From positions 1-16,994 of the forward strand of contig DPSD01000190.1 in NCBI GenBank assembly GCA_003538495.1: 16,994 nucleotides of DNA, written 5' to 3'. Of the stretch, positions 1 to 16,121 are shown piece after piece. Position 1 is the first letter of the stretch, and each line of letters starts with the position of its first letter. The stretch is from Accumulibacter sp. Its GTDB lineage: Bacteria > Pseudomonadota > Gammaproteobacteria > Burkholderiales > Rhodocyclaceae. Position numbers and translations under genes: made by a program. The notes beneath the pieces were generated by a model, which saw nothing but the letters and a program-made list of their open reading frames with translations, was not told the origin of the DNA and did no database searches.

Positions 1-955
1 GGGTGGATGCTCCATAATGCCGGGTATCTCAACCTATCTTTGGGTGCTCACCAACCGCAAGGAACCGCCGCGGAAGGGCAAGATCCAGCTTGTCGACGCC
101 CGGCGATTCTTCGTCAAGATGCCGAAAAGCCTCGGCAACAAGCGCAACAAGTTGGGTGACCCTACCGATAGGCCGAGCGAGCCGGACCAGATCGCCGATA
201 TCACTCGTCTGTTCGGTAGCTTTGTGGACGGCGAAACGCGGACGTTCACCGAGGAGGACCCGATTACCAAACAGCCGGTCGAGAAGGTGCTTGTGGTCAG
301 CAAGGTCTTCGACAACGCGGACTTCGGCTTTCACAAGATCACGGTCGAGCGACCGCTGCGGCTCAACTTCCAGGCGACCGCCGAGCGTATGGCCCGGCTG
401 GAGACCGAAAGCGGCTTTGCCAAGCTCGCCACCAGCATCAAGAAGAATGAGAAGGCACGCCTCGAAGAGATCGAGGCCGGCAAGAAGCGGCAGGAGGAGA
501 TCCGCAGGCTCCTTGACCGTTTCGCGCAGGTGCACGGCACCAAGCTCTTCAAGGATCGCATCGCCTTCCTGACCACTTTGCGCGACATCGATCGAGACGC
601 CGGTGTGCGCCTTTCTGCACCTGAACTCAAGGCCGTACTCGCCGCCCTGGGTGAGCGTGATGACACGGCCGAGATCTGCCGCGATCGCGGCGGCAACCCC
701 GAACCAGATGCCGAACTGCGCGACACCGAGAGCGTACCGATCAAGGAGAGCGTCACCGCGTACTTCGAGCGTGAGGTGCGCCCGCATGTGCCCGATGCCT
801 GGATCGAGGAGAGCAAGACCAGGGTCGGCTACGAGATCCCGATCAACCGGCACTTCTATCGCTACGAGCCACCCCGTCCGCTGGAGGTGATCGAAGCCGA
901 CATCAAGGCGCTCGAAGAAGATATCAAGCGGCTCCTCGGCGAGGTCACGGCGTGA
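1..955 (+). CDS. hsdM: Type I restriction-modification DNA methyltransferase subunit HsdM, 3' part
   Basis: This is the C-terminal part of HsdM, the subunit that, with HsdS, methylates adenine at the target site. The frame open from position 2 (first Met at 17) begins with GISTYLWVLTNRK, the end of the Rossmann-type N6-adenine methyltransferase domain. The family-typical IQLVDARRFFVKMPKSLGNK and a Lys/Glu-rich helical C-terminus (PRPLEVIEADIKALEEDIKR) follow; this tail usually contacts HsdS. The SAM-binding and NPPF catalytic motifs would lie upstream, outside the window. In frame 1, the first codons read MLHNAG, resembling the usual MFYNTG that precedes GISTY, while frame 2 reads SIMPG. An extra G in the GGG at 22-24 would explain the switch, so the gene may be frameshifted. 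The TGA stop overlaps the next gene's GTG. Confidence 0.9.
   Translation, partial: GGCSIMPGISTYLWVLTNRKEPPRKGKIQLVDARRFFVKMPKSLGNKRNKLGDPTDRPSEPDQIADITRLFGSFVDGETRTFTEEDPITKQPVEKVLVVSKVFDNADFGFHKITVERPLRLNFQATAERMARLETESGFAKLATSIKKNEKARLEEIEAGKKRQEEIRRLLDRFAQVHGTKLFKDRIAFLTTLRDIDRDAGVRLSAPELKAVLAALGERDDTAEICRDRGGNPEPDAELRDTESVPIKESVTAYFEREVRPHVPDAWIEESKTRVGYEIPINRHFYRYEPPRPLEVIEADIKALEEDIKRLLGEVTA
941..944 (+). promoter_or_regulatory. Ribosome binding site for the RecD-like helicase gene
   Basis: GAGG (within GCGAGG) lies 7 bases before the GTG at 952. It supports that start, which overlaps the hsdM stop as GTGA. Confidence 0.5.
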
Positions 956-3900
956 GCACCCTCACGTACCCGTTGCGACACGTTTCCATCCGCGTGCCTT
1001 GGCACGACAATGGTTGGAACGGCACGGTCTGCACCCAGCCCCGGCACAACACTGCTTGCCTCAAGCTGGTGAACATCGCCGAAAGCAAGGTGGAAGCCGA
1101 CGAGGAGAAGGTGCGCGGGCAGTCGTTGAAGGACATGAACCCCGTGGACTTCCCGCCATGCGTCAAGGAACGCTCCACCTTCATGGCACCGTTCGCGCTG
1201 GACCGGTTGCACGAGCATCCCTATGTCAAGTCGTCGCCAGACACCCACGCCCACTTCAAGCCCACGCGACTGCACTACCACGCCTACGCCGCTGCCGGGT
1301 TACCTTTCCGCTGGATGATGAAGCGGGTGGTGTTCGGCGATAATCAACGTGGCGAACGTGGTCTGGTTGAGAGCTTCCCGCTCGAACGCGTGAATCAGTC
1401 CTTCGAAGACACGCCTGGCCTCAAGTTCAAATCCCTCTGGCTTCAGGACCATCGCAATCACCGCGCGCTGCTGGATTGCTTCTGGAACCACGTTCAGTCG
1501 GACGAGTCGCTCGTCTTCGTCTATGCCAAGCAGGTGCCGCTGGTCGAAGACACAGGCCGGCGAGTCTTGATTGGCGCCGGGCGCGTACTCGAGCTCGGAC
1601 CGCTCACCGAGTACGACTACGACGGTTCGCCGGAGGGCAAGATCCGCAGCCTGTTGTGGGAGCGGATGGTGATTCACTCCGTGCGCCCCGGCTTCGAGGA
1701 CGGCTTCCTGATGCCCTACCAAGAGGCGCTTGCCAAGTCCGACGAAGGGCGCGCCTTTGACCCGGCCGAAGTAGTCGCCTTTGCGCCGGAAGACCGGTTC
1801 AGTGAGTTCTCGTATGCCACGGAGCATGTCGGACACGACGCCGCCATCGCTGCGCTGCTGGCTTGCCGTGCAGCGTTGCTGCGCTCCGCCGAGCTCTTTG
1901 ATGTTGCTACGGCCAAACAAGAGGCCTGGATAGACCAACAACTCGGTCGCTTGTGGACAAGGCGCGGCCCGTTCCCCGGCTTGGGAGCGGTGCTCGGCGC
2001 TACTGGCGTGCCGATGGCCCACTTTGTCGCACAAGCCTTGGCCGACTCGGTCGGTGACGACGGCGACCCCTGGACAGCCTGGCGGGCGGCGGTGGCCGAT
2101 CCGTCCAGGCATCTGCCGGCTGATCTCGCCAGACGACTCGATGGCACCATCGCCAAGTCCTGGCAGCGAATGCAGCCGCAGCGCCGTCAGGTGCTGGAAC
2201 TGCTGAGTCGCATCGACCTCACCGCCGAGCAAGCCGAGGTGCTCGCCGTACCCGAAACACGAGTCGAGCAGGGCCTCATACTCGACGACGCCGAGCTCTT
2301 GCGAAACCCGTATCTGGTTTACGAAACAACCCGCTTGACCCGATTGCCGGTTGCCATTGGCACAGTCGATCGCGGCCTGTTTCCCACCACCTTTGTTCGC
2401 GAGCGCCACCCGCTGCCCGAGCAATCCGTCGTGCAGACGCCAGTCGATGCGCGCCGCCTGCGGGCGCTGACGATCCGCGAGCTCGAGAACGCCACTGTCC
2501 GTGGCGACACCTTGTCTCCGCAGGCCGCCGTGATCGCGTCGTTGCGCAAACGAGCGCCGGAGCACGACGAGCACCACACGCCGGTCACCGCCGATCTCCT
2601 GGCTGTTGCGGAAGACGAGCACTTCGCGGGCGAGATCCGCCTCGTCGAAATGGCCGATGGCTCGCGCGCCTACCAGCTCGAACGTCTGGCCAAGAGTGGT
2701 GAACTGATCCGGAACACCATCGACAAGCGCGCCCAGAGCCAACCTCACCAGCTGAAAGCCGACTGGCGCCATGAGCTCGACCAGCAGCTTGGTGCGCTGC
2801 CTGCCGAAGGCGAAGAGAGTGACAAGGAAGAGCGCGCCCGCCAGGAAAAGGCCGCCGCACTCGCGGAACTGGCTGTGCGCCGCTTCTGTGTGCTCATTGG
2901 TCCGGCCGGCACTGGCAAAACAACCCTGCTCTCGGTCCTGTGCCGCGACCCGTCGATCCAGGCTGAGGGCATTCTGATGCTCGCCCCTACCGGCAAGGCG
3001 CGTGTGCGCATGGAGGACGTGGCGCGTCGTGCTGGGATCCAGAACCTGCAAGCTCTGACGCTGGCGCAGTATCTTTCGCGCTCAAAACCACAGCGCTACG
3101 AAGGTGCTACCGGCCGCTATCGGCTCACCGGCCAGCCGGGCGAGAAAGGCGCACGCACCGTGATCGTCGACGAGTGCTCGATGCTCACCGAGGAGATGAC
3201 CGCCGCCCTTCTTGAGGCGCTGAGCGGCGTGCACCGGCTCATCTTCGTGGGGGACCCGCGCCAGTTGCCGCCCATCGGCGCCGGCCGGCCTTTTGCCGAC
3301 GTGATTGCGCGGCTGCAGCCGCAAGACATCGAGACCTGCTTCCCGCGCGTCGGACCTGGCTATGCCGAGCTCACCGTGCCGCGCCGCCAGGGTGCAGGCG
3401 AGCGTGAAGACTTGCAACTGGCTGCCTGGTTCGGTGGCGGCGTGCTCGGCCCCGGCGAGGATCAGGTGTTCGAGATCCTGGCGGGCCAGCGCAGCAGCCA
3501 TACGATTCAGTTCGTCCGCTGGGATACGCCGGACGAACTTGAGGCGCTGTTGCCCATTTCTCTAGCCGCCGCGCTCCAGTTCAATCCCCAGCAAGTCGAG
3601 TGGCAGGCGTTCGCGTGCAGTCTCGGCGGCCAGCAGTCAGGCGATCATGTTTACTTCAATCGCAGTCGATCCGGGCAGCGTGCCGAGGCCTGGCAGCTCT
3701 TGAGTCCGGTGCGTCAGACGCCGTGGGGCGTAGATACGCTCAATCGCACAATCCATGTGCGCTACAAGGCACCCCAACTTGAAGTTGCTCGAGCCAGGGT
3801 AATGCCTTGGAAACGAAGATTGCCACAGCCCTTTGGCGACGACCAGATCATCTACGGTGACAAGGTCATCAACGTTCGTAATCAGTCGATCGGTCAGCAA

Positions 3901-4743
3901 CGGATCTATCCGAAACCGGCTGAGCGCGGTTACCTGGCCAACGGCGAGATCGGCATCGCGATTGGGCAGATTCGCACCAAGAGCTTCAAGTACGAGCCTA
4001 AGACCCTCCAGGTCGAGTTCTCCACGCAGCCGGGCATTTCCTTCGAGTTCTATGCGCCTAAGGGTGATGACGACGACTTCAGCCTCGAACTCGCCTACGC
4101 CCTAACGGTGCACAAGGCGCAGGGCAGCGAGTTCGACGTCGTTTTCCTCGTGCTGCCGAGCTCGCCCCAGGTGTTGACGCGCGAACTGCTGTACACGGCG
4201 CTTACGCGCCAGAAGCAGAAGGTCATCGTGCTGCACCAGGGCTCGGCCACCGACCTCCAGCGCCTGAGCGCTGAGCGCTACTCGGCCACCGCCACGCGCC
4301 TGACCAATCTGTTCGGCCCGCCACGGCCGGTGGAGGTGGGCGGCTCTTTCCTCGAAGACCGGCTGATTCACCGCACCAGCCGAGGCGAAGCGGTGCGCTC
4401 CAAGTCCGAAGTGATCATCGCCAACCTGCTGCACGCCAAGGGCATCGACTATCACTACGAACACCCGCTGGAACTGGGTGGCGTGTTCAAGTATCCCGAC
4501 TTCACGATCGAAGACGACGACACGGGCATCACCTACTACTGGGAACATTGCGGGTTGCTGCACGACGCCGCCTACCGCCGCCGCTGGGAGGAAAAGCAAC
4601 AGTGGTATCGCGAGCAAGGCATCTTGTCGCTGGAAGAGGGCGGCGGGCCGAAAGGCGCGCTCATCGTGACGCGCGACCAACGGGATGGCGGTATCGACTC
4701 GGCGGGTATCGCAGCGGTGATCGCGAAGATCGGCGGATGCTGA
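952..4743 (+). CDS. RecD-like SF1 DNA helicase with C-terminal PD-(D/E)XK nuclease-like domain
   Basis: This 1263-aa protein is probably an ATP-driven DNA helicase with a nuclease tail. Residues 1 to about 400 match nothing I recognise. Around 400-470 is a RecD2-like helical segment containing NPYLVYE. The SF1 core has Walker A GPAGTGKT (650-657), Walker B VIVDEC (737-742), motif III GDPRQLPP (767-774), motif V TVHKAQGSEFD (1052-1062) and motif VI YTALTR (1081-1086). A C-terminal domain has E1153 (RSKSEVIIANLL), D1183 (YPDFTI) and E1198 (YYWEHCG), the spacing of a VSR/UvrD-associated PD-(D/E)XK fold, though the final residue is EH rather than ExK. The GTG start overlaps the hsdM TGA and has a GAGG site 7 bases upstream. 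Its place inside the hsd operon suggests it processes DNA recognised by the R-M complex; that role is inference. Confidence 0.88.
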   Translation: MSTLTYPLRHVSIRVPWHDNGWNGTVCTQPRHNTACLKLVNIAESKVEADEEKVRGQSLKDMNPVDFPPCVKERSTFMAPFALDRLHEHPYVKSSPDTHAHFKPTRLHYHAYAAAGLPFRWMMKRVVFGDNQRGERGLVESFPLERVNQSFEDTPGLKFKSLWLQDHRNHRALLDCFWNHVQSDESLVFVYAKQVPLVEDTGRRVLIGAGRVLELGPLTEYDYDGSPEGKIRSLLWERMVIHSVRPGFEDGFLMPYQEALAKSDEGRAFDPAEVVAFAPEDRFSEFSYATEHVGHDAAIAALLACRAALLRSAELFDVATAKQEAWIDQQLGRLWTRRGPFPGLGAVLGATGVPMAHFVAQALADSVGDDGDPWTAWRAAVADPSRHLPADLARRLDGTIAKSWQRMQPQRRQVLELLSRIDLTAEQAEVLAVPETRVEQGLILDDAELLRNPYLVYETTRLTRLPVAIGTVDRGLFPTTFVRERHPLPEQSVVQTPVDARRLRALTIRELENATVRGDTLSPQAAVIASLRKRAPEHDEHHTPVTADLLAVAEDEHFAGEIRLVEMADGSRAYQLERLAKSGELIRNTIDKRAQSQPHQLKADWRHELDQQLGALPAEGEESDKEERARQEKAAALAELAVRRFCVLIGPAGTGKTTLLSVLCRDPSIQAEGILMLAPTGKARVRMEDVARRAGIQNLQALTLAQYLSRSKPQRYEGATGRYRLTGQPGEKGARTVIVDECSMLTEEMTAALLEALSGVHRLIFVGDPRQLPPIGAGRPFADVIARLQPQDIETCFPRVGPGYAELTVPRRQGAGEREDLQLAAWFGGGVLGPGEDQVFEILAGQRSSHTIQFVRWDTPDELEALLPISLAAALQFNPQQVEWQAFACSLGGQQSGDHVYFNRSRSGQRAEAWQLLSPVRQTPWGVDTLNRTIHVRYKAPQLEVARARVMPWKRRLPQPFGDDQIIYGDKVINVRNQSIGQQRIYPKPAERGYLANGEIGIAIGQIRTKSFKYEPKTLQVEFSTQPGISFEFYAPKGDDDDFSLELAYALTVHKAQGSEFDVVFLVLPSSPQVLTRELLYTALTRQKQKVIVLHQGSATDLQRLSAERYSATATRLTNLFGPPRPVEVGGSFLEDRLIHRTSRGEAVRSKSEVIIANLLHAKGIDYHYEHPLELGGVFKYPDFTIEDDDTGITYYWEHCGLLHDAAYRRRWEEKQQWYREQGILSLEEGGGPKGALIVTRDQRDGGIDSAGIAAVIAKIGGC

Positions 4744-4746
4744 CCC

Positions 4747-7700
4747 GTGAAAGCCTTCCTCGAACAGATCAATGACAAGCGGCTGCGTTCCTATGACGCA
4801 GACCCCGGCTTGCTCAAGGAGCATTGTGGCATCGAGGAAACGGTACTGGCAGGTGGCTACGGCTACCGTCAGATCCTCGAACTCGTCCAGAACGGTGCGG
4901 ATGCGTTGCTGGAAGCGCAGGAGCGTGGCGACGTGCTGGACGGCGATGGTCGCATCCACGTCCAGCTGCGCGGGTCGCGGCTCTATGTCGCCAACACCGG
5001 GGCACCGCTGAGTGAAGAAGGCCTGGATGCCCTTCTTCGTTCTCATTCGTCGCCGAAACGCGGCAACCAGATCGGGCGCTTCGGTCTGGGCTTCAAGTCG
5101 TTGCTGAAACTCAACGGGCGGATCGATGTCTTCACCCGTGCCGCAGGAGCGATTCGCTTCGATCCCGAGAGGTGCCGTGCGGAGCTCCAGCAGCGATTTC
5201 GGGTAACAGAGGCGCCCGGTCTGCGGCTCGCGTGGGCACTCCCGCCGGATGAGCGTGCGGCAGATCCGCTTTGCGCCGAGCTGGCGTGGGCTGAAACGAT
5301 CGTTCGCATCGAGGTCGGGTCAGAGAGTCTGCTGCAGCACATACAACAAGAGATTCGGTCGTTTCCAGCCGAGTTCCTGCTGTTCTTTCCTGTTGCCACC
5401 AGGCTGACACTCGATAACGGCGAGCAGAAGGCGCGGGACGTCCGCCTGGCCATCGAGGGTGTCGAGCAGATCCTGCACGATGGCGAGGTCGTCTCGCGCT
5501 GGCGCATCGCTGCGCGCGAAGTCCGTATCACCGACGCCCGAGCCATCGCGGACGCCACACACATCCACGCTCGCGAGTCCGTACCAGTCTCGTGGGCCAT
5601 GCCACTGGAAGGGCGGCGCGAAGAGGCCGGCCGCTTCTGGTTCGCCTTCCCCACGCACACGCAGACCTACCTGCCGGGCATCCTGAATGCACCGTGGAAG
5701 CTCAACAGCGACCGCAACGCGATCATCGGCGGCGAGTGGAATGCCGCGCTGATGGCCGAGGCGGCGCGCCTGATCGCGGAAACGCTGCCCAGCCTTGCCA
5801 CCCCGGACGACCCCGCTCGGCCCCTGGATGCCTTCCCCCGACAACTAGATCGCAAGGACGAGGACGCAGCCCCACTAGTCGAGGCGCTGTGGGCGCGGCT
5901 GGAGGCAGCAGCCGTCATCCCAGACGGCACCGGGGCACAGCGGCGCGGGCAGGACCTCTGGCGCCACCCGAAGGACACCCTGAACCTAGCAACTGCGTGG
6001 CAATCACTTGCTGGCGCAGAGCAGCAGCGCCAGCTGGTTCACGCGTCCTGCCTGGAGCGCCAGCGTGCCAGCCGGCTGAATGCGCTGGCGGAACGTATGA
6101 AAACGTCTACCGAACCGCACAGCCCACCGGCGCTTCACCGCCGCACCACCGAATCGTGGTTTGGCATCGTGGCGTCGACTGAGCCCGGCGCTGCGTTCGG
6201 CGTGCTAAAGCTGGCGGATTCCTTCTCCATCGACGTGAAGCCGGGCGAGTGGAACCAGGCTCGGCCCACACTTGCGATCGTTCCGACCCAGTCAAGCCAG
6301 TTGTTCACGGCGGCCAAGGTCGTCCTCGCACCCGAGGGAGTGTCCGTGCCCGGCCGCGCATCTGTAGCCGCCGAGCTTCAGTCCAACCCCGAGGCGCGGC
6401 GCATTCTGAGTGAGGTGCTTCGCGTCAATGAACTGGACGATCAGGTTTGGGCATCGATCCTTACCGAGGCACTTCATCAGGTGCTGAGCTGGCCGGCGGA
6501 GGCCAAGGAGACCGGCTGGAAGGTGTTTTGGTCCCGGCTGCGCCGCGCGCCTGCGGGCGTGCGCAGTGCCTTCCTGGACAGGAATCGCGATCGCGTGCGC
6601 GTGTGTCGTCGCGATGGACGGTGGGTGAGAGCCGACGGCGTCCTGCTTTCCGGTGGCTTGGTGAGCGAAAGCGATCCTTCTCCGAACTCGAATGTACTTG
6701 TCGATCCCGATGCGCATGGTAACGACCGGGCGTCGTTGGTCGCGCTGGGCGTCGTGGATGTTCCATCAGGCGACATCGGGCCTGCAGACTTCACTGAGAT
6801 TTCGGGCGAGACTCACGTGCTGGAGCCATGGCGCGCGGCGTGCCGCAGCCGCTACAAGGCAACGCAAGAGAACTCCGCCTCGCGAGACTACCTCACACCG
6901 TACGGCTTATCGATGCCGCGAGGTTATGGGTTGCTTGCGGAGCTCAATGGCGCCACGAAGGCACGTTTCACCTTCCAGCTCCTTGATCGCCTCGCCGAGC
7001 GGACGTTCCAAGGAACCATCCGCTTCGGCCACAGTACAATGTTGGTCTACCCGAAGATCGATGTGCCGCACCCGCTGTCATGGTACGTGCTCAAGCACGG
7101 CGAGGTGCAGCTGGGCTTTTCCACAGTGCCCCTCAGGGCTCTTGTCGAGCGCCGCAACCAACCAGTCCTGCGAGACCTGCCGGATTGGACACGTGTCGAA
7201 TCGGCGCTCGACCGGCTGAACACCGCCTTCCCCACAGTGTTAGTTACGCCGGACGACTTGCGCACCTTCTGGGTCGCGATGATCGCCGCACTCGTCACGC
7301 CGGCTGCCCTTGATGGCGACGCACTGAGCGACCTCTGGCTCGGCGCCGCCAGGGATGGCGTCGTTCCGACCGAACTGCCATCGCCGACAGGCCGCGTGCC
7401 GCTGACCGCGGCATTCGTGACCACCTCCGTCGATCTGACGCGGCGCGCTCGTACGCCGGAGCGCGTGGTCGTGGCGCTCGACGCCCCCACGATGCAACTC
7501 TGGCTGAAGGCAGGCGCGCAGGACCTTGCGCGCGTGATCCAGGCGGAGTGGGACGCCATCGCGGGGCCGCCCGAGCGCCTGACTAACGTGGTCCCCGAGC
7601 TTGGCGATGTCATGTTGGCAGGCGTTCGCGAAGCGGCACGGTGTCAGCACGTCAAGCAGCTCCGCCTCAGGATCGCCGACGCCGCACAGGAAGCCCCTTG

Positions 7701-9492
7701 CCTCATGTGGGACGGTGCGCTGTTCATGGATGCTGAACAACTGGCGCCGCTTTCCCGAGCGGACCGTCTACAGCGGCTGCTCGCCGAGATCGCCGCGTCT
7801 GGCTGGCTCGACAGTTCGCCTGGAGACGCGCTTCAGCGCCTTGCCGACGCAGGCGTCGACGAGCGGCGAGCGCACGTCGCACAGGGATCGACGCTGGCCG
7901 AGCGCCTGCTGCGCGCGGTGGGCAATCGAATCGGACCCTTGCTCGATGCCCTGGGCCAGTCGCTTCGCAACATGGGCTTCGTCCGGAAATGCACGCCGCA
8001 ACGGCTCGCCGAACTGGTGCTCGCCCAGTTGGGCCCGGCCGCGCTGCCGGCTCTGCGAGACACCTTGCTGGCGGAGGGGCTGCAGCCACCCGCGCGCTGG
8101 AACACGTCAGCCGCACTCGCGTTCGCAGCCGCCATCGGTTTCCCGCCCGAATTCGCTTCGTCGGCTGAAGCCAGGCGTGAGCCCGAGGAATTGATCAGCG
8201 GACCGATCGAGCTGCCGCCCCTGCACGACTTCCAGCAGGAGGTTTTCGCGGGCCTGAGTTCGCTGCTGGCCAACAGCGCCAAGCGACGGCGCGCAGTCAT
8301 CAGCCTGCCCACGGGCGGCGGCAAGACCCGCGTCACGGTGGAGGCGGCCGTGCGCCTCGTGCTCGCGCCGGCGGGCGCAACGCGTAGCGTGCTCTGGATC
8401 GCCCAGACCGACGAGTTGTGCGAGCAGGCGGTGCAGGCGTTTCGTCAAGTCTGGGTCAATCTTGGCGCCAGGCGAACGAACCTGCGCATCGCCCGCCTGT
8501 GGGGTGGCAATCCCAATCCGACTGGGCAAGCTCTGGACAAGCCGGTCGTCGTCGTGGGCTCGATCCAGACGCTGCATAATCGCGTCGGCGCGGCGGATCT
8601 GGACTGGCTGCGCAAGCCTGGCCTGGTGGTCGTCGACGAGTGTCACCACGCCATCACGCCGAGCTACAGCGCGCTGCTGCGCTGGCTGGATGCCGAAGCA
8701 CCGCGCGCCGGCGCGGCCGACAAGGCCGAACCGCCCATCGTGGGGCTGAGCGCGACGCCCTTCCGCACCGACGATGACGAAAGCCGGCGCCTTGCGCGCC
8801 GCTTTGACAGCCATTGGCTGCCCTCCGACCAGGAGCGGCTTTACGCACGCCTGCTCGCGCAGGGAGTGCTCGCACGGGCGCAGTACGAGTCGCTCGACTC
8901 CGGCGTAAGCCTGACCAACGACGAGTTGGCCAGGCTGGGGCGGCTGCCTGAGCTGTGGGAAGGTCTCGATTTCGAGAACCTGCTGGAAGCCATCAATCAG
9001 CGTCTCGCGGGCGACACGCGCCGCAATGGGCGCCTCGTGGAGTGCATCGAAGCAAGCGCCGAGCGCGCCATCCTCTTCTTCACGAACTCCGTCGCGCGTG
9101 CGGAGGAAATGGCCGCCCGCCTGAATCTCGCCGGCATCGGCGCCGCGGCCATCAGCGGCAGCACGCCGCCCGTGGCTCGGCGTTACTTCCTCGACCGCTT
9201 CCAGGGCGGGAAGATCCGTGTGCTGTGCAATCACAGCGTCCTGACCACAGGCTTCGATGCGCCCAGGACCGACATGGTGCTGATCGCCCGGCAGGTCTTC
9301 AGCCCGGTGCGCTACATGCAGATGGTCGGTCGCGGGCTGCGCGGGGAAAAAAACGGCGGCACCGTGTCGTGCCGAATCGTCACGGTCGTCGACAACCTCG
9401 GCCGATTCGAGCATCGGCATCCCTATCACTACTGCCGGAACTACTTCTCGACGATGGAAGGTGCGAAAACTGCGGCCGAGGTGCATTCATGA
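4747..9492 (+). CDS. GHKL (HSP90/sacsin-like) ATPase fused to SF2 DEAD/DEAH-type helicase
   Basis: This 1581-aa two-motor protein has an N-terminal GHKL ATP-binding domain: N-box ELVQNGADA (45-53, with E45 and N49), a G1-like ANTGAP (82-87, where the usual DxGxG is degenerate), and G2 IGRFGLGFKS (109-118). This resembles sacsin/HSP90-type ATPases more than histidine kinases. Residues about 330-1140 form a long region with no motif I recognise. The C-terminal third is a full SF2 helicase: motif I PTGGGKT (1188-1194), motif II DECHH (1297-1301), motif III SATPF (1335-1339), motif V TTGFDAP (1500-1506) and motif VI QMVGRGLRG (1525-1533). The GTG start follows the previous stop after three bases (TGA CCC GTG) and is in the same frame; there is only a weak GGCGGA upstream. 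Its TGA overlaps the hsdS ATG. The function is probably DNA translocation or remodelling in defence, by inference. Confidence 0.88.
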   Translation: MKAFLEQINDKRLRSYDADPGLLKEHCGIEETVLAGGYGYRQILELVQNGADALLEAQERGDVLDGDGRIHVQLRGSRLYVANTGAPLSEEGLDALLRSHSSPKRGNQIGRFGLGFKSLLKLNGRIDVFTRAAGAIRFDPERCRAELQQRFRVTEAPGLRLAWALPPDERAADPLCAELAWAETIVRIEVGSESLLQHIQQEIRSFPAEFLLFFPVATRLTLDNGEQKARDVRLAIEGVEQILHDGEVVSRWRIAAREVRITDARAIADATHIHARESVPVSWAMPLEGRREEAGRFWFAFPTHTQTYLPGILNAPWKLNSDRNAIIGGEWNAALMAEAARLIAETLPSLATPDDPARPLDAFPRQLDRKDEDAAPLVEALWARLEAAAVIPDGTGAQRRGQDLWRHPKDTLNLATAWQSLAGAEQQRQLVHASCLERQRASRLNALAERMKTSTEPHSPPALHRRTTESWFGIVASTEPGAAFGVLKLADSFSIDVKPGEWNQARPTLAIVPTQSSQLFTAAKVVLAPEGVSVPGRASVAAELQSNPEARRILSEVLRVNELDDQVWASILTEALHQVLSWPAEAKETGWKVFWSRLRRAPAGVRSAFLDRNRDRVRVCRRDGRWVRADGVLLSGGLVSESDPSPNSNVLVDPDAHGNDRASLVALGVVDVPSGDIGPADFTEISGETHVLEPWRAACRSRYKATQENSASRDYLTPYGLSMPRGYGLLAELNGATKARFTFQLLDRLAERTFQGTIRFGHSTMLVYPKIDVPHPLSWYVLKHGEVQLGFSTVPLRALVERRNQPVLRDLPDWTRVESALDRLNTAFPTVLVTPDDLRTFWVAMIAALVTPAALDGDALSDLWLGAARDGVVPTELPSPTGRVPLTAAFVTTSVDLTRRARTPERVVVALDAPTMQLWLKAGAQDLARVIQAEWDAIAGPPERLTNVVPELGDVMLAGVREAARCQHVKQLRLRIADAAQEAPCLMWDGALFMDAEQLAPLSRADRLQRLLAEIAASGWLDSSPGDALQRLADAGVDERRAHVAQGSTLAERLLRAVGNRIGPLLDALGQSLRNMGFVRKCTPQRLAELVLAQLGPAALPALRDTLLAEGLQPPARWNTSAALAFAAAIGFPPEFASSAEARREPEELISGPIELPPLHDFQQEVFAGLSSLLANSAKRRRAVISLPTGGGKTRVTVEAAVRLVLAPAGATRSVLWIAQTDELCEQAVQAFRQVWVNLGARRTNLRIARLWGGNPNPTGQALDKPVVVVGSIQTLHNRVGAADLDWLRKPGLVVVDECHHAITPSYSALLRWLDAEAPRAGAADKAEPPIVGLSATPFRTDDDESRRLARRFDSHWLPSDQERLYARLLAQGVLARAQYESLDSGVSLTNDELARLGRLPELWEGLDFENLLEAINQRLAGDTRRNGRLVECIEASAERAILFFTNSVARAEEMAARLNLAGIGAAAISGSTPPVARRYFLDRFQGGKIRVLCNHSVLTTGFDAPRTDMVLIARQVFSPVRYMQMVGRGLRGEKNGGTVSCRIVTVVDNLGRFEHRHPYHYCRNYFSTMEGAKTAAEVHS
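9478..9483 (+). promoter_or_regulatory. Ribosome binding site for hsdS
   Basis: GAGGTG ends 5 bases before the ATG at 9489 and lies within the end of the preceding helicase gene. It supports the ATGA-overlapping start. Confidence 0.55.
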
Positions 9493-9893
9493 GATTTGCG
9501 GCCTATCCAAAGTACAAGCCGAGCGGCAGCGAGTGGTTGGGTGACCTGCCCGACCAATGGAATGTGAAGCGTGGGCGCTTCTGCATGCACGTGAATCCCC
9601 GCTCGAGGCGACTGCGGACTCTTGCTCCGGAAGATGAGGTGTCGTTCGTGCCGATGGAAGCCGTTGGTGAGTACGGCGGCCTGCAGCTCAAGCAGACGCG
9701 GACAATTGACGAGGTAGGCGCCGGGTATACGGAGTTCGACGATGACGACGTTGTCGTGGCCAAGATCACGCCGTGCTTTGAGAATGGCAAGGGCGCTCTG
9801 GCCGCCGGTCTCGTAAATGGCGCCGCATTTGGGACGACCGAACTGCATGTTTTTCGCTCAACGCCCCTTGTTGAGCGACGCTTCTTGTTCTAG
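9489..9893 (+). CDS. HsdS N-terminal fragment (partial target-recognition domain 1)
   Basis: If TAG 9891 is a true stop, translation from ATG 9489 gives a 134-aa piece holding the opening box and most of target-recognition domain 1 (VSFVPMEAVGEYGG, VVVAKITPCFENGKG, TTELHVFRS). It lacks the QKRV segment and the conserved spacer helix, so it is unlikely to bind HsdM or DNA productively by itself. Confidence 0.5.
   Translation: MRFAAYPKYKPSGSEWLGDLPDQWNVKRGRFCMHVNPRSRRLRTLAPEDEVSFVPMEAVGEYGGLQLKQTRTIDEVGAGYTEFDDDDVVVAKITPCFENGKGALAAGLVNGAAFGTTELHVFRSTPLVERRFLF
9516..9560 (+). repeat. HsdS half-repeat box, copy 1
   Basis: This encodes KPSGSEWLGDLPDQW, the box that opens the first half of HsdS. 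It pairs with the copy at 10200-10244 (684 bases downstream), and 9 of the 15 residues are identical. This is the normal internal duplication of HsdS. Confidence 0.75.
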
Positions 9894-9935
9894 TTCACGA
9901 TCTCGCAGATCTTTCGGGCCACTGGTGAGGGCCAG

Positions 9936-10856
9936 ATGTACGGCGCGGGGGGGCAGAAGCGCGTGCCACCGGAATTCTGCAAGGATGTTCGGGTGCCGCT
10001 GCCGCCTTTGGATGACCAGCGGTCCATAGCTGACTTCCTCGACCGCGAGACGGCGAAGGTCGACACGCTGGTGGCGAAGAAGCGGACGTTGATCGAGCGG
10101 CTCAAGGAGAAGCGCACCGCGCTCATCTCGCGCACGGTTACCCGCGGCCTCCCGCCCGACGCCGCCCGCGCCGCCGGCCTCGACCCGCACCCCGACCTCA
10201 AGCCCTCCGGCATCGACTGGCTCGGCGAGGTGCCGGCGCATTGGGACGTGACGCATTTGAAGTACGCCACGTCGCGAATTGTTGATTGCCCACACGAGAC
10301 GCCGACCTACGCCGATGACGGTGAGTACTTCGTGATTAGGACGGCTGATGTCAGCTCGGGCAGGCTCGATCTAACAGCCGCCTATCGGGTCGATGCGGAC
10401 GAATTTTGCAGGCGCATTCGGAGAGAGCCGTTGCTTGGTGACGACATTGTCTATGGTCGCGAGGGAGAGCGATGGGGTTTCGCTGCACTTGTGCCTCAAA
10501 GCACGCCCGTTTGCCTTGGGCAACGCATGATGCAGTTCCGCGTAGCGACACATTTCGACGCCGCTTTTCTGATGTGGCAACTGAATGCGGCTAGCGTCGT
10601 CAAGCGGGGAGCGGTCGACATCACGGGCGCGACTGCACCTCACGTCAACGTCGAAACCATCCGGAACTATTGGCTCGCCGCACCTCCACTGCCCGAGCAA
10701 CACGTGATCGCCGAATTCCTCAATCATGAAGCCGCCAAGCTTGACGCGATGGTGAACAAGATCAAGACGGCCATCGAGCGCTTGCAGGAGTACCGCACTG
10801 CGTTGATCACGGCGGCAGTGACGGGCATGATCGATGTGCGCGGGGCCGTCGCATGA
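9936..10856 (+). CDS. HsdS C-terminal fragment (helix 1, target-recognition domain 2, helix 2)
   Basis: This is a 306-aa frame downstream of the internal TAG, starting at ATG 9936 with GAGGG at 9927-9931 as a possible reinitiation site (only 4 bases of spacing). It holds the GAGGQKRV end of domain 1, the complete conserved helix 1, complete target-recognition domain 2 and helix 2. One recognition domain flanked by both helices is the arrangement of known functional half-HsdS proteins, which act as dimers and read palindromic bipartite sites. Whether it is expressed is unknown; it may simply be the second part of a dead gene. Confidence 0.55.
10002..10151 (+). repeat. HsdS conserved helix, copy 1
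   Basis: This encodes 50 residues starting [16 protein letters not shown], a long spacer helix between the recognition domains. It is homologous to the copy at 10683-10832, 681 bases away, as expected for the pseudo-symmetric HsdS fold. Confidence 0.75.
10200..10244 (+). repeat. HsdS half-repeat box, copy 2
   Basis: This encodes [15 protein letters not shown], which opens the second HsdS half. It is the partner of the box at 9516-9560. Confidence 0.75.
10683..10832 (+). repeat. HsdS conserved helix, copy 2
   Basis: This encodes 50 residues starting [16 protein letters not shown]. It is the C-terminal counterpart of the helix at 10002-10151. Confidence 0.75.
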
Positions 10857-11302
10857 GCACGCCCTTCAATATCGAGAGCTTCGAGGAGTACTTGACGACG
10901 GTGCGCAACGAGCTTCCGGAGGGGCGCAAGTACTTCCGCGGCCAGACCAAGCTTGTTTCGCTGGGCTACGAACTTAAGCCTTCGATCGGACGCTACGGCC
11001 ACCTGCTGGAGAAGTCCTTCCGGGAACGCGACGAGCTCGAGTACGAAGTCCTCGAAGTGTTCAGTAATCATCTCGTCACCCACGTCCAGCACCTGCCGCG
11101 CACCGAGTGGGAGGCCCTCGCTATTGCACAGCACCATGGTCTGCCTACCCGGTTCATGGACTGGACCACGAATCCGCTGGTCGCCTTGTACTTCGCGGTA
11201 CGCGAGACCCAGACGGACGACGACAATCAGCCGATGAACAGCGCGGTGTACGTGTTGATCAGCGATCCACCGCGCTACACAGACTTCAATCGCAAGCAGT
11301 AG
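10853..11302 (+). CDS. FRG-domain N-terminal fragment
   Basis: If TAG 11300 terminates, a 149-aa protein is made that keeps the FRGQ and [12 protein letters not shown] core but loses the C-terminal RMRAQ and LFPDLDGIAKWL elements. The core motifs could be enough for partial folding, which is unproven. Confidence 0.5.
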
Positions 11303-11317
11303 CCGGCGGTAATACCG

Positions 11318-11752
11318 GTGAAAGACCTTGCAACGACGCCAGCGTCGCGTGCCTCCGGCTACGAGGAGTTCGGTGTCGAAGGACTTGAACCACAGGAGGG
11401 CGAGGTGCCGCTCCCGCCAACCGAGACAACAGACGAAGACGACAGGCAGGAAGACGGCAAGCGCCCGCCTACACCGTCGCCCTTCGAGATAACCGAAAAC
11501 GTGATTTACCACCCGCCGCATGTCTCGCCGCGGATGCGCGCGCAAGACAGCGTGCTGCTCGCCTGCCAAAAGCCCTTCGAGGCATTGGAGGAGCGGGACT
11601 GCCTCGAGATCATCATCCGCCACGACGCCCATGACGACATTCGCCGTCGGCTGGACCAGTACGGCGTGTTCGACCGGCAACTCTTTCCCGACCTGGACGG
11701 CATCGCCAAGTGGCTTCGCTACCGGGTCTTCGAAAGCAAAGGCGAACTGTGA
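11318..11752 (+). CDS. FRG-protein C-terminal fragment
   Basis: This is a 144-aa frame, in phase with the FRG gene upstream, with a possible GTG start at 11318, 15 bases after the TAG, and no convincing ribosome site. It begins with an acidic, Pro-rich, probably disordered stretch (PLPPTETTDEDDRQEDGKR) and ends with the folded LFPDLDGIAKWLRYRVF segment. It is best read as the second half of the FRG gene. Confidence 0.4.
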   Translation: MKDLATTPASRASGYEEFGVEGLEPQEGEVPLPPTETTDEDDRQEDGKRPPTPSPFEITENVIYHPPHVSPRMRAQDSVLLACQKPFEALEERDCLEIIIRHDAHDDIRRRLDQYGVFDRQLFPDLDGIAKWLRYRVFESKGEL

Positions 11753-11757
11753 GGGAA
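11751..11757 (+). promoter_or_regulatory. Ribosome binding site for hsdR
   Basis: GAGGGAA, overlapping the FRG stop codon, lies 7 bases before ATG 11765. It is among the better Shine-Dalgarno matches in the operon and fixes the hsdR start. Confidence 0.6.
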
Positions 11758-11764
11758 GCTGCGT

Positions 11765-14700
11765 ATGAGTAAGCAGACTAACGAGCGCGCATTTGAACTG
11801 CATGTCGAGGAAGTGCTGCTGCAGCAAGGCAACTGGCAGCCCGGTACCAACGCCGAGTGGGACGTCGAGCGCGCGTTGTTCCCGGCGCTCATCTGCCGCT
11901 TCCTGGAAGCCACGCAGGCGAAGCTCTGGGCGGCGATGCGTGCGCTACATGCGGCCGGGCTGGAAAAACTGATTATCAGCGCACTGGTCAAGGAGCTCGA
12001 CCTGAAGGGGGCGCTGCATGTGCTGCGCCACGGTTTCAAGTTCTACGGCAAGATCTTCCGGCTCGCCTACTTCAAACCGGCGCACGGTCTCAACGACGAG
12101 GTGCTGGCCCTGTACGCGCAAAACCAGCTCACCATCACGCGCCAGGTGCTCTGCCACCCGGGCAAGCACGACACGGTCGATCTGCTGTTCGCTGTGAATG
12201 GGTTGCCGGTGGCGACCTGTGAACTCAAGAACCCCGGCACGGGCCAGAACTGGCGCCACGCGATGCGCCAATATCAGAAGGACCGCGATCCGCGAGCGCC
12301 CCTGTTCGGCTTCAAGAGCCGCGCGCTGGTGCATTTCGCTGCCGATCCGGACGAGGTGCACATGGCTACACGGCTGCGGGGCGCGGACACGCACTTCCTG
12401 CCCTTCAACCGCGGCAGTCATCCGGGCGAGGTACAGTGCGGCGCCGGTAATCCGCAACATGCGTCGGGCTACCGCACGGGCTACTTCTGGGAAGAGGTGC
12501 TCCAGCGCGACAGCTTTCTCGACATCCTCGGACACTTCATGTTCGTCGAGAAGAAGGAGGAGAAGGTCGGCGATGGCAAGGGTGGCCAGCGGCGCATCGT
12601 CAAGGAAACGCTGATTTTTCCGCGCTACCACCAGCTTGATGCGGTGCTCAAGATCATCGTTGCGGCACGCGACGAAGGGCCGGGGCGCAACTACCTGATC
12701 CAGCATTCGGCGGGCAGCGGTAAAACCAACAGCATTTCCTGGCTTTCACATCGCCTGGCAAGCCTTCACGATTCCGACGACCGTAAGGTGTTCGACTGCG
12801 TCGTCGTCATCACTGACCGGCGCGTTCTCGACCAGCAACTGCAGGACGCGATTTATCAGATCGAGCACGCCCAGGGTGTGGTGAAGGCCATTGACCAGGA
12901 CAGCAAGCAGTTAGCGGCGGCGCTTATCGACGGCACCAAGATCGTGATCACCACACTGCAGAAGTTCCCGTTCGTGTTGCGCGGGCTGCTGCACGCGGCG
13001 GGCGCCGAGACGCAGGAGACGGCGAGCACAGACGAGAAGAAGCAGGCCAAGGCGTGGGAGGCAGAAATCGCCAAGCACCGCTACGCGGTGGTCGTGGACG
13101 AGGCCCACTCCAGCCAAACCGGCGAGACCGCACGCGAGCTGAAAGCCATTCTCGGCGCCGACGCTGTCGAAGATGCTGAAGGCGAGAGCGATTGGGAAGA
13201 TCGACTCAATCAGGTGATGGCCTCGCGCGGCAAGCAGCCGAACCTGAGTTTTTGCGCCTTCACCGCCACGCCCAAGGGCAAGACACTTGAGCTATTCGGG
13301 CGACCGGGCAACAGCGGTACGCCGGAAGCTTTCCATCTCTACAGCATGCGGCAGGCGATCGAGGAGGGTTTTATCCTCGACGTTCTGACGAACTACACGA
13401 CCTACGCCACGTATTACCGGCTGCTAAAGGCGGCCGAGGATGACCCGAATCTGCCGACGAAGAAGGCGGCGCGGGCACTGGCGAAGTTCATGAGCCTGCA
13501 TCCCTACAATATCGGGCAGAAGACGGAAGTGATCGTCGAGCACTTTCGTCGCAGCGTCATGCACCGGCTGGGCGGGCGAGGAAAGGCGATGGTCGTCACG
13601 TCGTCGCGCCTGCACGCAGTGCGCTACAAACTCGCCTTTGAGCGCTACATCGCAGATAACGGCTATACGGACGTGCGCCCGCTTGTCGCGTTCAGCGGCA
13701 AGGTGACCGACCCGGAAACCGGTGTCGAGTACACCGAGCCTGGTATGAACACCGATGTCGTGACGGGCAAGCCCATCAGCGAGGCGGCGCTGCCCTCGCG
13801 CTTCGAGACTCCTGACTATCAGGTGCTGCTGGTCGCCAACAAGTACCAGACCGGTTTTGACCAGCCGTTACTGTGCGCGATGTACGTCGACAAGCGACTC
13901 GACGGCGTCCAGGCGGTGCAGACGCTTTCGCGGCTGAACCGGATGATCCCGGGCAAGGACGCGCCGTTCGTGCTCGACTTCGTTAACGACACGGAGAACA
14001 TCTACAACGCCTTCAAGCCGTATTTCGACAAGACCGAACTGGCCGCGCCCTCCGACCCGGCGATGCTGAACAAGCTGAAGCATGAGCTTGATCAGGCGCA
14101 GGCTTACCACTGGAGTGAAGTTGAAGCATTTGCGCAGGTGTTCTACAAGCCGCTGGACCGGCAGGGCGCGGCCGACCATGCGCACATGCAGCGCCACCTG
14201 CAACCGGCGGTGGACCGCTTCAAGGCGATCGCCGATGAGGCCAAGCGCGAGGAGTTCCGAGCGAGGCTCTCGGCCTACGTGAACGCGTATGCCTTCCTGA
14301 GCCAGATCGTTCCCTACGCCGACGCGGAGCTGGAGATGCTTTACAGCTACGGGCGTTTCCTGCTGCCGCACCTGCCGCTCGACCGCGACACGACTGTCGT
14401 CAAGGTGGGTGACGAGGTGGCGCTGCAGTACTACCGATTGGAGCGCGTGTACTCGGGCGCGATCGCGGTGCACGAGGGAGAGGCCCAGTACATCAAGAGC
14501 CCGTCGGATGTGGGAACAGGGAAGGCGCATGACGAGCCAGCGCCACTGTCCGAGATCATCAAGGTGCTGAATGAGCGGTTCGGCACACAGTTTTCCGAGG
14601 AAGACCGCCTTTTCTTTCAGCAGATCAAGGAGAGGGCTTGCAAGAGCGAGCAGGTCGTCAGGACCGCGATGGCAAACCCGCTCGACAAGTTCGAGCTGGG

Positions 14701-14893
14701 GGTTCGCAGGCTTGTCGAGAACCTGATGATCGAGCGCATGGGCGAAAACGACAAGATCGTGACCCGCTACATGGCAGATCGGGAGTTTCAGGGGTCGGCG
14801 TTTCCGATACTTGCCCGAGAGATATTTGAGGCTGTGAGGTCGAAGAGTCCGTCCGCTGCTGATGGTGGGCAAGGGCCTGCGGGCCAAGGGTGA
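11765..14893 (+). CDS. hsdR: Type I restriction enzyme motor and nuclease subunit HsdR
   Basis: HsdR translocates and cuts DNA when bound to an HsdM2-HsdS complex on unmethylated target sites. The 1042-aa protein has the usual HsdR length. The N-terminal PD-(D/E)XK nuclease has D139 (VDLLF) and E153-L-K155 (CELKN). Next comes an SF2 translocase: QHSAGSGKT (313-321), VVDEAHSSQTGE (DEAH at 445-448), FTATP (499-503), ANKYQTGFDQPL and QTLSRLNR (719-726). The C-terminal helical region, including EAFAQVFYKPLD, is typical of the family. All key residues are present and the frame is unbroken, unlike hsdS. It is the last gene of the packed operon, 12 bases after the FRG gene, with a good ribosome site. 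It would be inactive as a type I enzyme without a working HsdM/HsdS. Confidence 0.95.
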   Translation: MSKQTNERAFELHVEEVLLQQGNWQPGTNAEWDVERALFPALICRFLEATQAKLWAAMRALHAAGLEKLIISALVKELDLKGALHVLRHGFKFYGKIFRLAYFKPAHGLNDEVLALYAQNQLTITRQVLCHPGKHDTVDLLFAVNGLPVATCELKNPGTGQNWRHAMRQYQKDRDPRAPLFGFKSRALVHFAADPDEVHMATRLRGADTHFLPFNRGSHPGEVQCGAGNPQHASGYRTGYFWEEVLQRDSFLDILGHFMFVEKKEEKVGDGKGGQRRIVKETLIFPRYHQLDAVLKIIVAARDEGPGRNYLIQHSAGSGKTNSISWLSHRLASLHDSDDRKVFDCVVVITDRRVLDQQLQDAIYQIEHAQGVVKAIDQDSKQLAAALIDGTKIVITTLQKFPFVLRGLLHAAGAETQETASTDEKKQAKAWEAEIAKHRYAVVVDEAHSSQTGETARELKAILGADAVEDAEGESDWEDRLNQVMASRGKQPNLSFCAFTATPKGKTLELFGRPGNSGTPEAFHLYSMRQAIEEGFILDVLTNYTTYATYYRLLKAAEDDPNLPTKKAARALAKFMSLHPYNIGQKTEVIVEHFRRSVMHRLGGRGKAMVVTSSRLHAVRYKLAFERYIADNGYTDVRPLVAFSGKVTDPETGVEYTEPGMNTDVVTGKPISEAALPSRFETPDYQVLLVANKYQTGFDQPLLCAMYVDKRLDGVQAVQTLSRLNRMIPGKDAPFVLDFVNDTENIYNAFKPYFDKTELAAPSDPAMLNKLKHELDQAQAYHWSEVEAFAQVFYKPLDRQGAADHAHMQRHLQPAVDRFKAIADEAKREEFRARLSAYVNAYAFLSQIVPYADAELEMLYSYGRFLLPHLPLDRDTTVVKVGDEVALQYYRLERVYSGAIAVHEGEAQYIKSPSDVGTGKAHDEPAPLSEIIKVLNERFGTQFSEEDRLFFQQIKERACKSEQVVRTAMANPLDKFELGVRRLVENLMIERMGENDKIVTRYMADREFQGSAFPILAREIFEAVRSKSPSAADGGQGPAGQG

Positions 14894-15077
14894 CTTGGTG
14901 ACTTCGCAGCGAGTCCGTCTATACCGGTGGCCAGCTGACGTAGGGTTGGATGGAAAGGCGGCCCGAATCTGGCATCAGCAACCGGGAGTATGAGAACGAT
15001 GCAATTCCAGCAATCCGGCGTCGCTATCAAGGCTCAAACTGCTTTCACCACGCTGTTCATACGGCCTTCGTGGGTCG
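14894..15077 (+). other. Intergenic gap after hsdR
   Basis: This 184-bp gap is the longest apparently non-coding stretch in the window. No clear terminator hairpin with a T-run was seen. TTGGTG (14895-14900) and TCTATA (14918-14923), 17 bases apart, form a weak sigma70-like pair that could drive the next gene, but the match is poor. A 36-codon ORF (ATG 14999, TGA ending at 15109) has GGGAG at 14984-14988, 10 bases upstream, and runs into the start of the next gene in another frame. It could be a leader peptide or chance. Confidence 0.35.
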
Positions 15078-16121
15078 ATGTTGATCGTGTCCGAGACGTT
15101 GCTGCCTGACGGCCTCCGTCATGTCCTGGTGCACGTCACGCTGAGTGGCGCGTTTCCGCCCGCACAAGATTCTGCCGACGATGTTGCCTTGCTTCGCGCA
15201 GCGAATCGAGCAATGCGCCGAAAGCAGCGTGGGCATTCGGATTCCTTCCTGTTTGTGTTCGCTGGGCAATTCGACGCGGACAAACTTCAGCAGGCCATTG
15301 CGGCCTATGGATTTCCAGATTTCTCTGTCTCGAAGATCGAGACCGACGGCGACGTTGACAAGCCGTCAGGGAGTGACTACGAGGATCTTTGCACAGAGGT
15401 TGGTGGGGTTGTTTCACAATGGCTTGGTCGAGAACATCCTGGAGCCATCGCGCTCTCCAGCGACGAGTTCAAGGAGACGACGTTTTGGTGGAGTGGGGTC
15501 GAGCATGATGATGATCGTTCTTGTGACTGGCATTTCACTGCTGAAGCGTATGCCGCATCTCTGCCAGACGCGCATCGCGCCCGAGCGGCGACCTGGTTGA
15601 CCGTGCTAAGTCATTCCGTAGAATTCGCTGAGATGCAATACGATTGTCCAGCAGGACTGGGCTCTGACCGTGCCGCTGCATGGGCCGCGACCTTGTGTGA
15701 GTGGTTGCATGGCTTCGAAGCCGCCACCGGGAATAGGTTCAACAATTTCGAGTCTGAATATGCTTTTGAGCTGATGCCGTCGGAGTTCTACTTGGGGTTT
15801 GAGTTTGCCAGGATTTCTGGTGAGGAGTTAGAGACAATATGTGACCAAACCGGCGATGACGTCGACAGCCTTCCACGTACTGCCCTTAAGACCGTCACAG
15901 AGGAGAAGCGAAGCGAGTTGCGTGGTGCGCTCGCTTCTTTTTTTGGAGGCGACTCAGACCTGTTTTGGGCGCTGTACTCGGCGATCTGGCCGAAGTTTAA
16001 TCAACCGATGAGCGACGCTCTCAACAGCACGTTGGGAACTTCTGACTATGAGGGCCTGGCAGAGCTCGAAGCCCCGTGGCGCTTCGTTTCAGACGGTTGG
16101 AGTGATGAAGCCGAGGGTTAA
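15078..16121 (+). CDS. Acidic hypothetical protein, 347 aa
   Basis: I do not recognise this family. The 347-aa product is acidic (many Asp/Glu, for example SGVEHDDDR and the end GWSDEAEG), has no evident signal peptide or membrane segment, and shows no nucleotide-binding or nuclease motif I can name. Aromatic residues cluster in FWWSG and DLFWALYSAIWPKF. The start is uncertain: ATG 15078 lacks a clear ribosome site, and the frame stays open upstream to the TGA at 14991 with no ATG or GTG start. Local GC is lower than in the hsd operon (sampled 60-base lines 45-58% against 67% in hsdR), suggesting a separate origin. It ends in TAA 21 bases before the STAS/HATPase gene, with which it may be co-transcribed. 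Confidence 0.75.
   Translation: MLIVSETLLPDGLRHVLVHVTLSGAFPPAQDSADDVALLRAANRAMRRKQRGHSDSFLFVFAGQFDADKLQQAIAAYGFPDFSVSKIETDGDVDKPSGSDYEDLCTEVGGVVSQWLGREHPGAIALSSDEFKETTFWWSGVEHDDDRSCDWHFTAEAYAASLPDAHRARAATWLTVLSHSVEFAEMQYDCPAGLGSDRAAAWAATLCEWLHGFEAATGNRFNNFESEYAFELMPSEFYLGFEFARISGEELETICDQTGDDVDSLPRTALKTVTEEKRSELRGALASFFGGDSDLFWALYSAIWPKFNQPMSDALNSTLGTSDYEGLAELEAPWRFVSDGWSDEAEG

Follow-up and report, generated by a model that had tools for sequence, protein, structure and literature searches.

The 16,994-nucleotide contig DPSD01000190.1 of an Accumulibacter sp. assembly (GCA_003538495.1), analysed over its whole length and hereafter called the window, carries a type I restriction-modification (R-M) operon that holds three further genes: a RecD-like helicase-nuclease gene, a gene fusing a GHKL ATPase to a superfamily 2 (SF2) helicase (hereafter GHKL-SF2) and an FRG-domain gene. 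All six genes lie on the + strand in the order hsdM (3' part), RecD-like, GHKL-SF2, hsdS, FRG and hsdR, with junctions of -4, +3, -4, -4 and +12 bases between successive genes, as described in an earlier note made from the sequence alone (one direction, with 4-base overlaps or small gaps). Every gene label has a supporting match in Pfam, PADLOC or NCBIfam. The features are the following (aa, amino acids; E, expectation value).

2-955, + strand: hsdM, C-terminal 317 codons, 5' end beyond the window edge (PADLOC MTase_I, E 3.9e-86)
952-4743, + strand: RecD-like SF1B helicase with C-terminal PD-(D/E)xK nuclease, 1263 aa (PADLOC PDC-S68)
964-1869, + strand: N-terminal region of the RecD-like protein, residues 5-306, candidate PUA-type (EVE/YTH-like) modified-base reader
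2170-4251, + strand: RecD2-like helicase part of the RecD-like protein, residues about 407-1100
4396-4554, + strand: PD-(D/E)xK nuclease motifs of the RecD-like protein, residues 1149-1201 (27-row alignment)
4747-9492, + strand: GHKL ATPase fused to an SF2 (RadD-like) helicase, 1581 aa (Pfam ResIII, Helicase_C)
4795-5799, + strand: GHKL and transducer (S5) module of GHKL-SF2, residues 17-351
9489-10856, + strand: hsdS with an in-frame TAG at 9891-9893 (Specificity_I, E 5e-87 from 9936 on)
10853-11752, + strand: FRG-domain gene (PADLOC PDC-S15) with an in-frame TAG at 11300-11302 (PF08867, E 5.7e-24)
11765-14893, + strand: hsdR, 1042 aa (Pfam HSDR_N, SWI2_SNF2, T1R_D3-like; PADLOC REase_I)

Homologues of hsdM, hsdS and hsdR share this one operon, hsdM being judged by its C-terminal part, which covers positions 393-660 of the 661 of the MTase_I model and gave no match in Pfam or NCBIfam. 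The type I subunits are not all intact in the window, as the 5' end of hsdM lies outside it and hsdS is interrupted by its TAG. Past this codon, hsdS continues in the unshifted frame and is colinear with intact homologues in a Devosia metagenome-assembled genome (MAG; locus L003) and in an Accumulibacter MAG (L001); FRG likewise runs on unshifted past its own TAG, colinear with the intact FRG of L003. The two halves of FRG match PDC-S15 in register (E 4.4e-72 and 2.4e-55), the profile being covered in two pieces (1-155 and 173-306 of 308) with the stop codon between them. Since both frames run on unshifted, the two codons are either single nonsense mutations or assembly or sequencing errors. 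Taken as it stands, the sequence contains two broken genes out of six, which may leave the specificity function and FRG arm of this copy inactive. Recoding of TAG as a sense codon was considered, since TAG accounts for both internal stops and for none of the seven checked gene ends (six TGA, one TAA). With so GC-rich a sequence, two codons are too thin a basis for such a claim, which was dropped because single nonsense changes or errors explain both TAGs.

The RecD-like protein matches the PADLOC model PDC-S68 from end to end (1514 bits, E 0, residues 6-1260, profile positions 3-1218 of 1221). The PDC label, which we take to stand for phage defence candidate, reportedly comes from a 2024 preprint by Payne et al. 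Pfam found AAA_30 and UvrD_C_2 in the protein, and fold comparison gave a RecD2 fold for its helicase part, within which PADLOC also placed a weak local match to mad8 (E 3.3e-5), the only mad match in the window. In an alignment of the window copy with 26 relatives, the helicase motifs are conserved together with the series S-K-S-E / P-D-F / W-E-H. This conservation is illustrated by K1151, E1153, P1182, D1183, W1197, E1198, H1199 and G1201, which are invariant in all 27 rows. The N-terminal region may be a PUA-type (EVE/YTH-like) reader of modified bases, which is proposed here as new. Among its Pfam matches at E up to 10 (10 segments) there was no PUA-type family. An hhalign comparison with 10 EVE proteins scored 17.4, within the range of 200 column shuffles (median 14.6, 95% 19.4, maximum 23.2), and an unrelated HsdS set reached 22.2 in the same comparison, above the EVE score. 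A Foldseek search against viral protein models gave one match below E 0.001, an unnamed 356-residue entry.

For GHKL-SF2, NCBIfam gave P_loop_sacsin above its cut-off and RadD as best match, far below its own. The best PADLOC match of its N-terminus, over residues 2-414 (E 3.5e-44), is TmtA, which we take to be a protein of the Tiamat system. Eight TmtA models match the protein, with the best stretch of each inside residues 2-568 of 1581, and homology to TmtA over the full length was not found. Its C-terminus matches several SF2 helicase models of PADLOC, those of PbeA and of type IV restriction enzymes among them. No catalogued family in PADLOC, Pfam or NCBIfam covers the full length, six relatives also being checked in PADLOC. 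A PDB search indicated a GHKL and transducer fold for the N-terminal module, and the GHKL ATPase followed by an S5 (transducer) domain reproduces the layout of MORC/paraMORC proteins. The PDB searches with this protein were dominated by the GHKL module and gave no domain assignment for the middle part of the protein (about residues 450-1150).

The arrangement recurs outside the window. L003 keeps the order hsdM, RecD, GHKL, hsdS and FRG, its junctions being -4, +1, +6 and -4; hsdR was not seen there because the contig runs on for only 379 bases and the ORF (open reading frame) in that stretch clusters with hsdS. Two loci (L127 and L128) from genomes of Verrucomicrobiota, the phylum of the Opitutales MAG G006, have the order hsdM-RecD-hsdS, and the 4-base hsdM/RecD overlap is common to the window, L003, L127 and L128. 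L001 has hsdM-GHKL-hsdS; in both L001 and L013, GHKL-SF2 lies in an hsd operon that lacks this RecD gene, and their genomes (G001 and G006, respectively) gave weak RecD-type matches only. The slot between hsdM and hsdS, a first cargo slot, is thus occupied by RecD, by GHKL-SF2 or by both, and the slot after hsdS by FRG in the window and L003. In L128, genes for reverse transcriptase UG5 and a nitrilase (DRT-type; L128:3782-6687) lie between hsdS and hsdR. A gammaproteobacterial MAG (L048/L118) has the two motor genes side by side with no hsd genes, at 44% and 35% identity to the RecD-like and GHKL-SF2 proteins of the window. Seven of the 120 RecD matches listed have a contig size identical to that of one of the 120 GHKL matches listed, compared with 0-3 (mean 0.9) in 20 shifted controls, which suggests that the two genes form a recurring couple. 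In the RecD tree, for which four of the ten P rows were chosen for a contig size shared with a GHKL match, the window copy groups with metagenomic copies. The GHKL tree, obtained by a quick method and with several open forks, places it as sister to L001, and L003 and L013 elsewhere among stand-alone and type III-linked copies.

The distribution of GHKL-SF2 extends well beyond hsd operons. Protein searches with the two motors each scored the 7995 candidates with most words in common; at E 0.001, there were 1449 matches in the search with GHKL-SF2 and 4082 in that with the RecD-like protein. A scan of one genome per species with two short peptide patterns then provided 268 GHKL-SF2 relatives, the best 80 of which gave 76 loci. 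Neighbours were counted within 8 kb with hidden Markov models (HMMs) made from these loci themselves, at more than 100 bits. DrmA and DrmB accompanied GHKL-SF2 in 31 of the 76 loci, 26 of which also have a cytosine (5mC) methyltransferase; HsdM was found in three (L001, L003 and L013), a type III methyltransferase in two (L007 and L038) and RecD without HsdM in one (L048). None of these families was found in the remaining 39. At L055, HsdM lies 8.2 kb away, just outside the limit. Restricting the count to the 49 loci flanked by 5 kb or more on each side gave 28, 2, 2, 1 and 16, respectively. This spread of neighbours points to a mobile module. Among 72,556 plasmid records, no GHKL-SF2 match was found at E 1e-60. 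Viral contigs gave 20 loci, of which L077 alone matched over nearly the whole length; in this IMG/VR contig, classed as viral, weak type I-like hsdM, hsdS and hsdR matches (32-148 bits) lie upstream of GHKL-SF2.

The loci with DrmA and DrmB represent a recurring type in their own right (31 loci among L024-L076, e.g., L030:8558-21687), presumably all actinobacterial except L026 and L037. DrmA and DrmB lie downstream of GHKL-SF2 on the same strand in 29 of the 31, an SF1 helicase (UvrD-like or NERD-UvrD) is present in 29 of the 31, and a search with one motif expression found no nearby ORF with a phospholipase-D motif (0/31). DrmA and DrmB were confirmed with PADLOC for L030 alone. This locus looks like a form of DISARM without a nearby phospholipase-D motif ORF.

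The RecD-like gene was sought in four partly overlapping genome samples (399, 385, 337 and 398 genomes) and was found in 14 distinct genomes, two of which had been chosen as centres (G002, the genome of L003, and G011, that of L048). In the other 12, it is flanked by type I genes in two (L127 and L128), by MADS-type genes in two (L114 and L117), and by a DrmD / HKD-SNF2 / type III methyltransferase locus in one (L134); pPIWI-RE-type genes are found nearby in one (L116). None of these was seen in the stretch examined for L115, L125, L126, L129, L135 and L136, L129 lying at a contig edge and L136 showing a weak match of DrmD type in an ORF of 230 aa. On plasmids, the gene was found in 5 of the 72,556 records (E 1e-60), with no hsd genes seen in the flanks of any of the five. 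On one of them, the Sphingomonas plasmid pC33 (L111:11660-25457), the RecD-like gene extends over three ORFs and is followed by a TmtA-like GHKL gene, a gene for an unknown 800-aa protein and DrmD. Among viral contigs, the 12 best of 78 loci were inspected (L137-L148): weak hsdM, hsdS and hsdR matches (53-122 bits) directly precede RecD in L140, an hsdR-type gene (746 bits) is its neighbour in L148 and MADS-type genes are found in L144. In L114, L117 and L144, PDC-S68 comes right after a mad7-type gene and a mad8-like gene of about 1820 aa, and it is possible that PDC-S68 is an extra MADS gene. These MADS-type calls come from PADLOC for L114 and one L117 protein, and from our own HMMs otherwise. 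The archaeon Methanocaldococcus jannaschii was the sole one of 14 control genomes to give a PDC-S68 match.

Taken together, the type I R-M operon of the window has probably taken in three defence genes, each able to transfer on its own, as translationally coupled cargo, modules which often accompany methylation-guarded systems. HsdM and HsdS would mark self DNA by adenine methylation, and unmarked DNA would be cut by both of them together with HsdR. The RecD-like protein would load on DNA ends or single strands arising from HsdR or from replication, its PUA-like N-terminal domain perhaps first reading the modification state, then unwind the DNA like RecD2 and degrade it through its PD-(D/E)xK domain. 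GHKL-SF2 may, in the manner of topoisomerase VI-B or MORC, form a dimer clamp whose closing is driven by ATP, its RadD-like motor moving along the DNA or stripping it, and FRG would be a further, unrelated effector. These modules would work in other operons too, and the gain here would be joint expression and protection of the host by a self-mark. Such a shared self-mark is plausible because both motors often accompany methylation-guarded defence genes. Two observations temper this: 16 of the 49 well-flanked GHKL-SF2 loci have no searched partner, in counts taken without a background rate, and four of the five plasmid RecD copies have none either.

The earlier note had instead proposed a composite defence system, which in its strictest form would be obligate, HsdM and HsdS marking the target, the RecD-like protein and GHKL-SF2 acting as subunits of one restriction complex and FRG performing the last step. 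The coupled junctions, the identical order in L003, the adjacency of the motors without hsd genes in L048, the position of RecD next to a TmtA-like GHKL gene in L111 and the excess of shared contig sizes are all in line with this view, and the arrangement does recur beyond the window (L003, L127, L128 and L001). Both motors between hsdM and hsdS, with FRG after hsdS, were found in L003, the Verrucomicrobiota loci lacking GHKL-SF2 and L001 lacking RecD. The note had named helicases lying mostly apart from hsd genes as an outcome that would refute its proposal, and this is what was observed: hsdM is near GHKL-SF2 in 3/76 loci and type I genes are near PDC-S68 in 2/12 genomes and 0/5 plasmids, each motor also existing on its own, away from hsd genes and from the other motor. 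Because there are hsd operons with just one of the two motors, because both are mostly found away from hsd genes and because two of the genes are already catalogued, a single obligate six-gene machine is unlikely. It is similarly doubtful that the cargo genes are passive hitchhikers, i.e., independent stand-alone defences with a promoter in common but with neither mark, substrate nor partner shared: both motors are found without any searched partner and the cargo between hsdS and hsdR varies among relatives, but the identical hsdM/RecD junction recurs in two phyla and GHKL-SF2 keeps company with DrmA, DrmB and, in most of these loci, a cytosine methyltransferase.

Going further than the cargo interpretation, we put forward, as a speculation with rather low odds of holding, that the RecD-like protein and GHKL-SF2 form a portable two-motor effector module for type I, type III, DISARM and MADS marking systems. 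The PUA-type domain would read the mark, the SF1B helicase-nuclease would degrade DNA without the proper mark, the GHKL clamp and SF2 motor would hold or remodel it, and the slot between hsdS and hsdR would be a second cargo site. If true, this would amount to a general rule for effector acquisition by methylation-guarded defence operons. Between them, the two large motors, mostly uncharacterised as far as our searches show, span type I, type III, DISARM and MADS loci, which raises the question of whether methylation systems provide interchangeable effectors with one common self-mark. This question is testable, since the motors recur across systems, one of them with the same hsdM junction in two phyla. 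The DISARM-like Actinomycetota locus type around GHKL-SF2 and the possible modified-base reader on a helicase-nuclease are two further pointers.

Downstream of hsdR, a 347-aa ORF (15078-16121) lies in a GC dip (0.557 for 15001-16000) and remained without a match in Pfam, PADLOC and NCBIfam at E 0.001. It is followed by an ORF that is open at the window end (16143-16994), with STAS and HATPase matches below the Pfam cut-offs.

In the literature searched, from which subscription journals were mostly absent, this gene set was not described, PDC-S68 and MADS were unmatched by name, and nothing was found on GHKL-SF2, on an arrangement with two motors or on the reader domain proposed here. Words for RecD, FRG and GHKL types were unmatched in the texts of PMC12458937 and PMC12839542. 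PMC8011034 and PMC12137116 treat paraMORC and GHKL proteins, PMC9142583 treats DISARM, PMC7897488 treats VcaM4I and PMC10693628 deals with other genes. The earlier note could match the gene order to no named system; of the three cargo genes, GHKL-SF2 is the one outside the PADLOC models, the other two being already catalogued, as PDC-S68 and PDC-S15. The library entry for PDC-S68 gives no function or source; the window copy adjoins GHKL-SF2, with a PUA-like N-terminal fold proposed. From PDC-S15, whose single model matches both FRG halves, the window copy differs by its nonsense codon.

Among named systems, DISARM is approached through the 31 of 76 GHKL-SF2 relatives that sit with DrmA and DrmB. 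The window itself shows no DrmB among the listed PADLOC matches of nine of its proteins (for hsdS, the best 25 of 102), and its only DrmA match, 21.5 bits in the downstream STAS/ATPase ORF, is not meaningful. MADS is approached through the PDC-S68 relatives that follow mad7-/mad8-type genes, the mad gene cluster being absent from the window according to PADLOC. TmtA of Tiamat resembles the N-terminus of GHKL-SF2, whose helicase half matches other SF2 models. MORC/paraMORC proteins, the latter forming five families, combine GHKL and S5 domains with an SF2 helicase in R-M neighbourhoods (Iyer 2008, PMC2292703); GHKL-SF2 resembles them in domain layout, and the SF2 helicase is fused here. A parallel in operon structure is DarTG2, which sits between hsdS and hsdR in the type I operon of E. 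coli E2348/69 (PMC12255303). As in the window, extra defence genes lie inside an hsdM-hsdS-hsdR operon, whereas in the window the hsdM-hsdS slot holds two giant motor genes and the hsdS-hsdR slot an FRG gene rather than a toxin-antitoxin pair.
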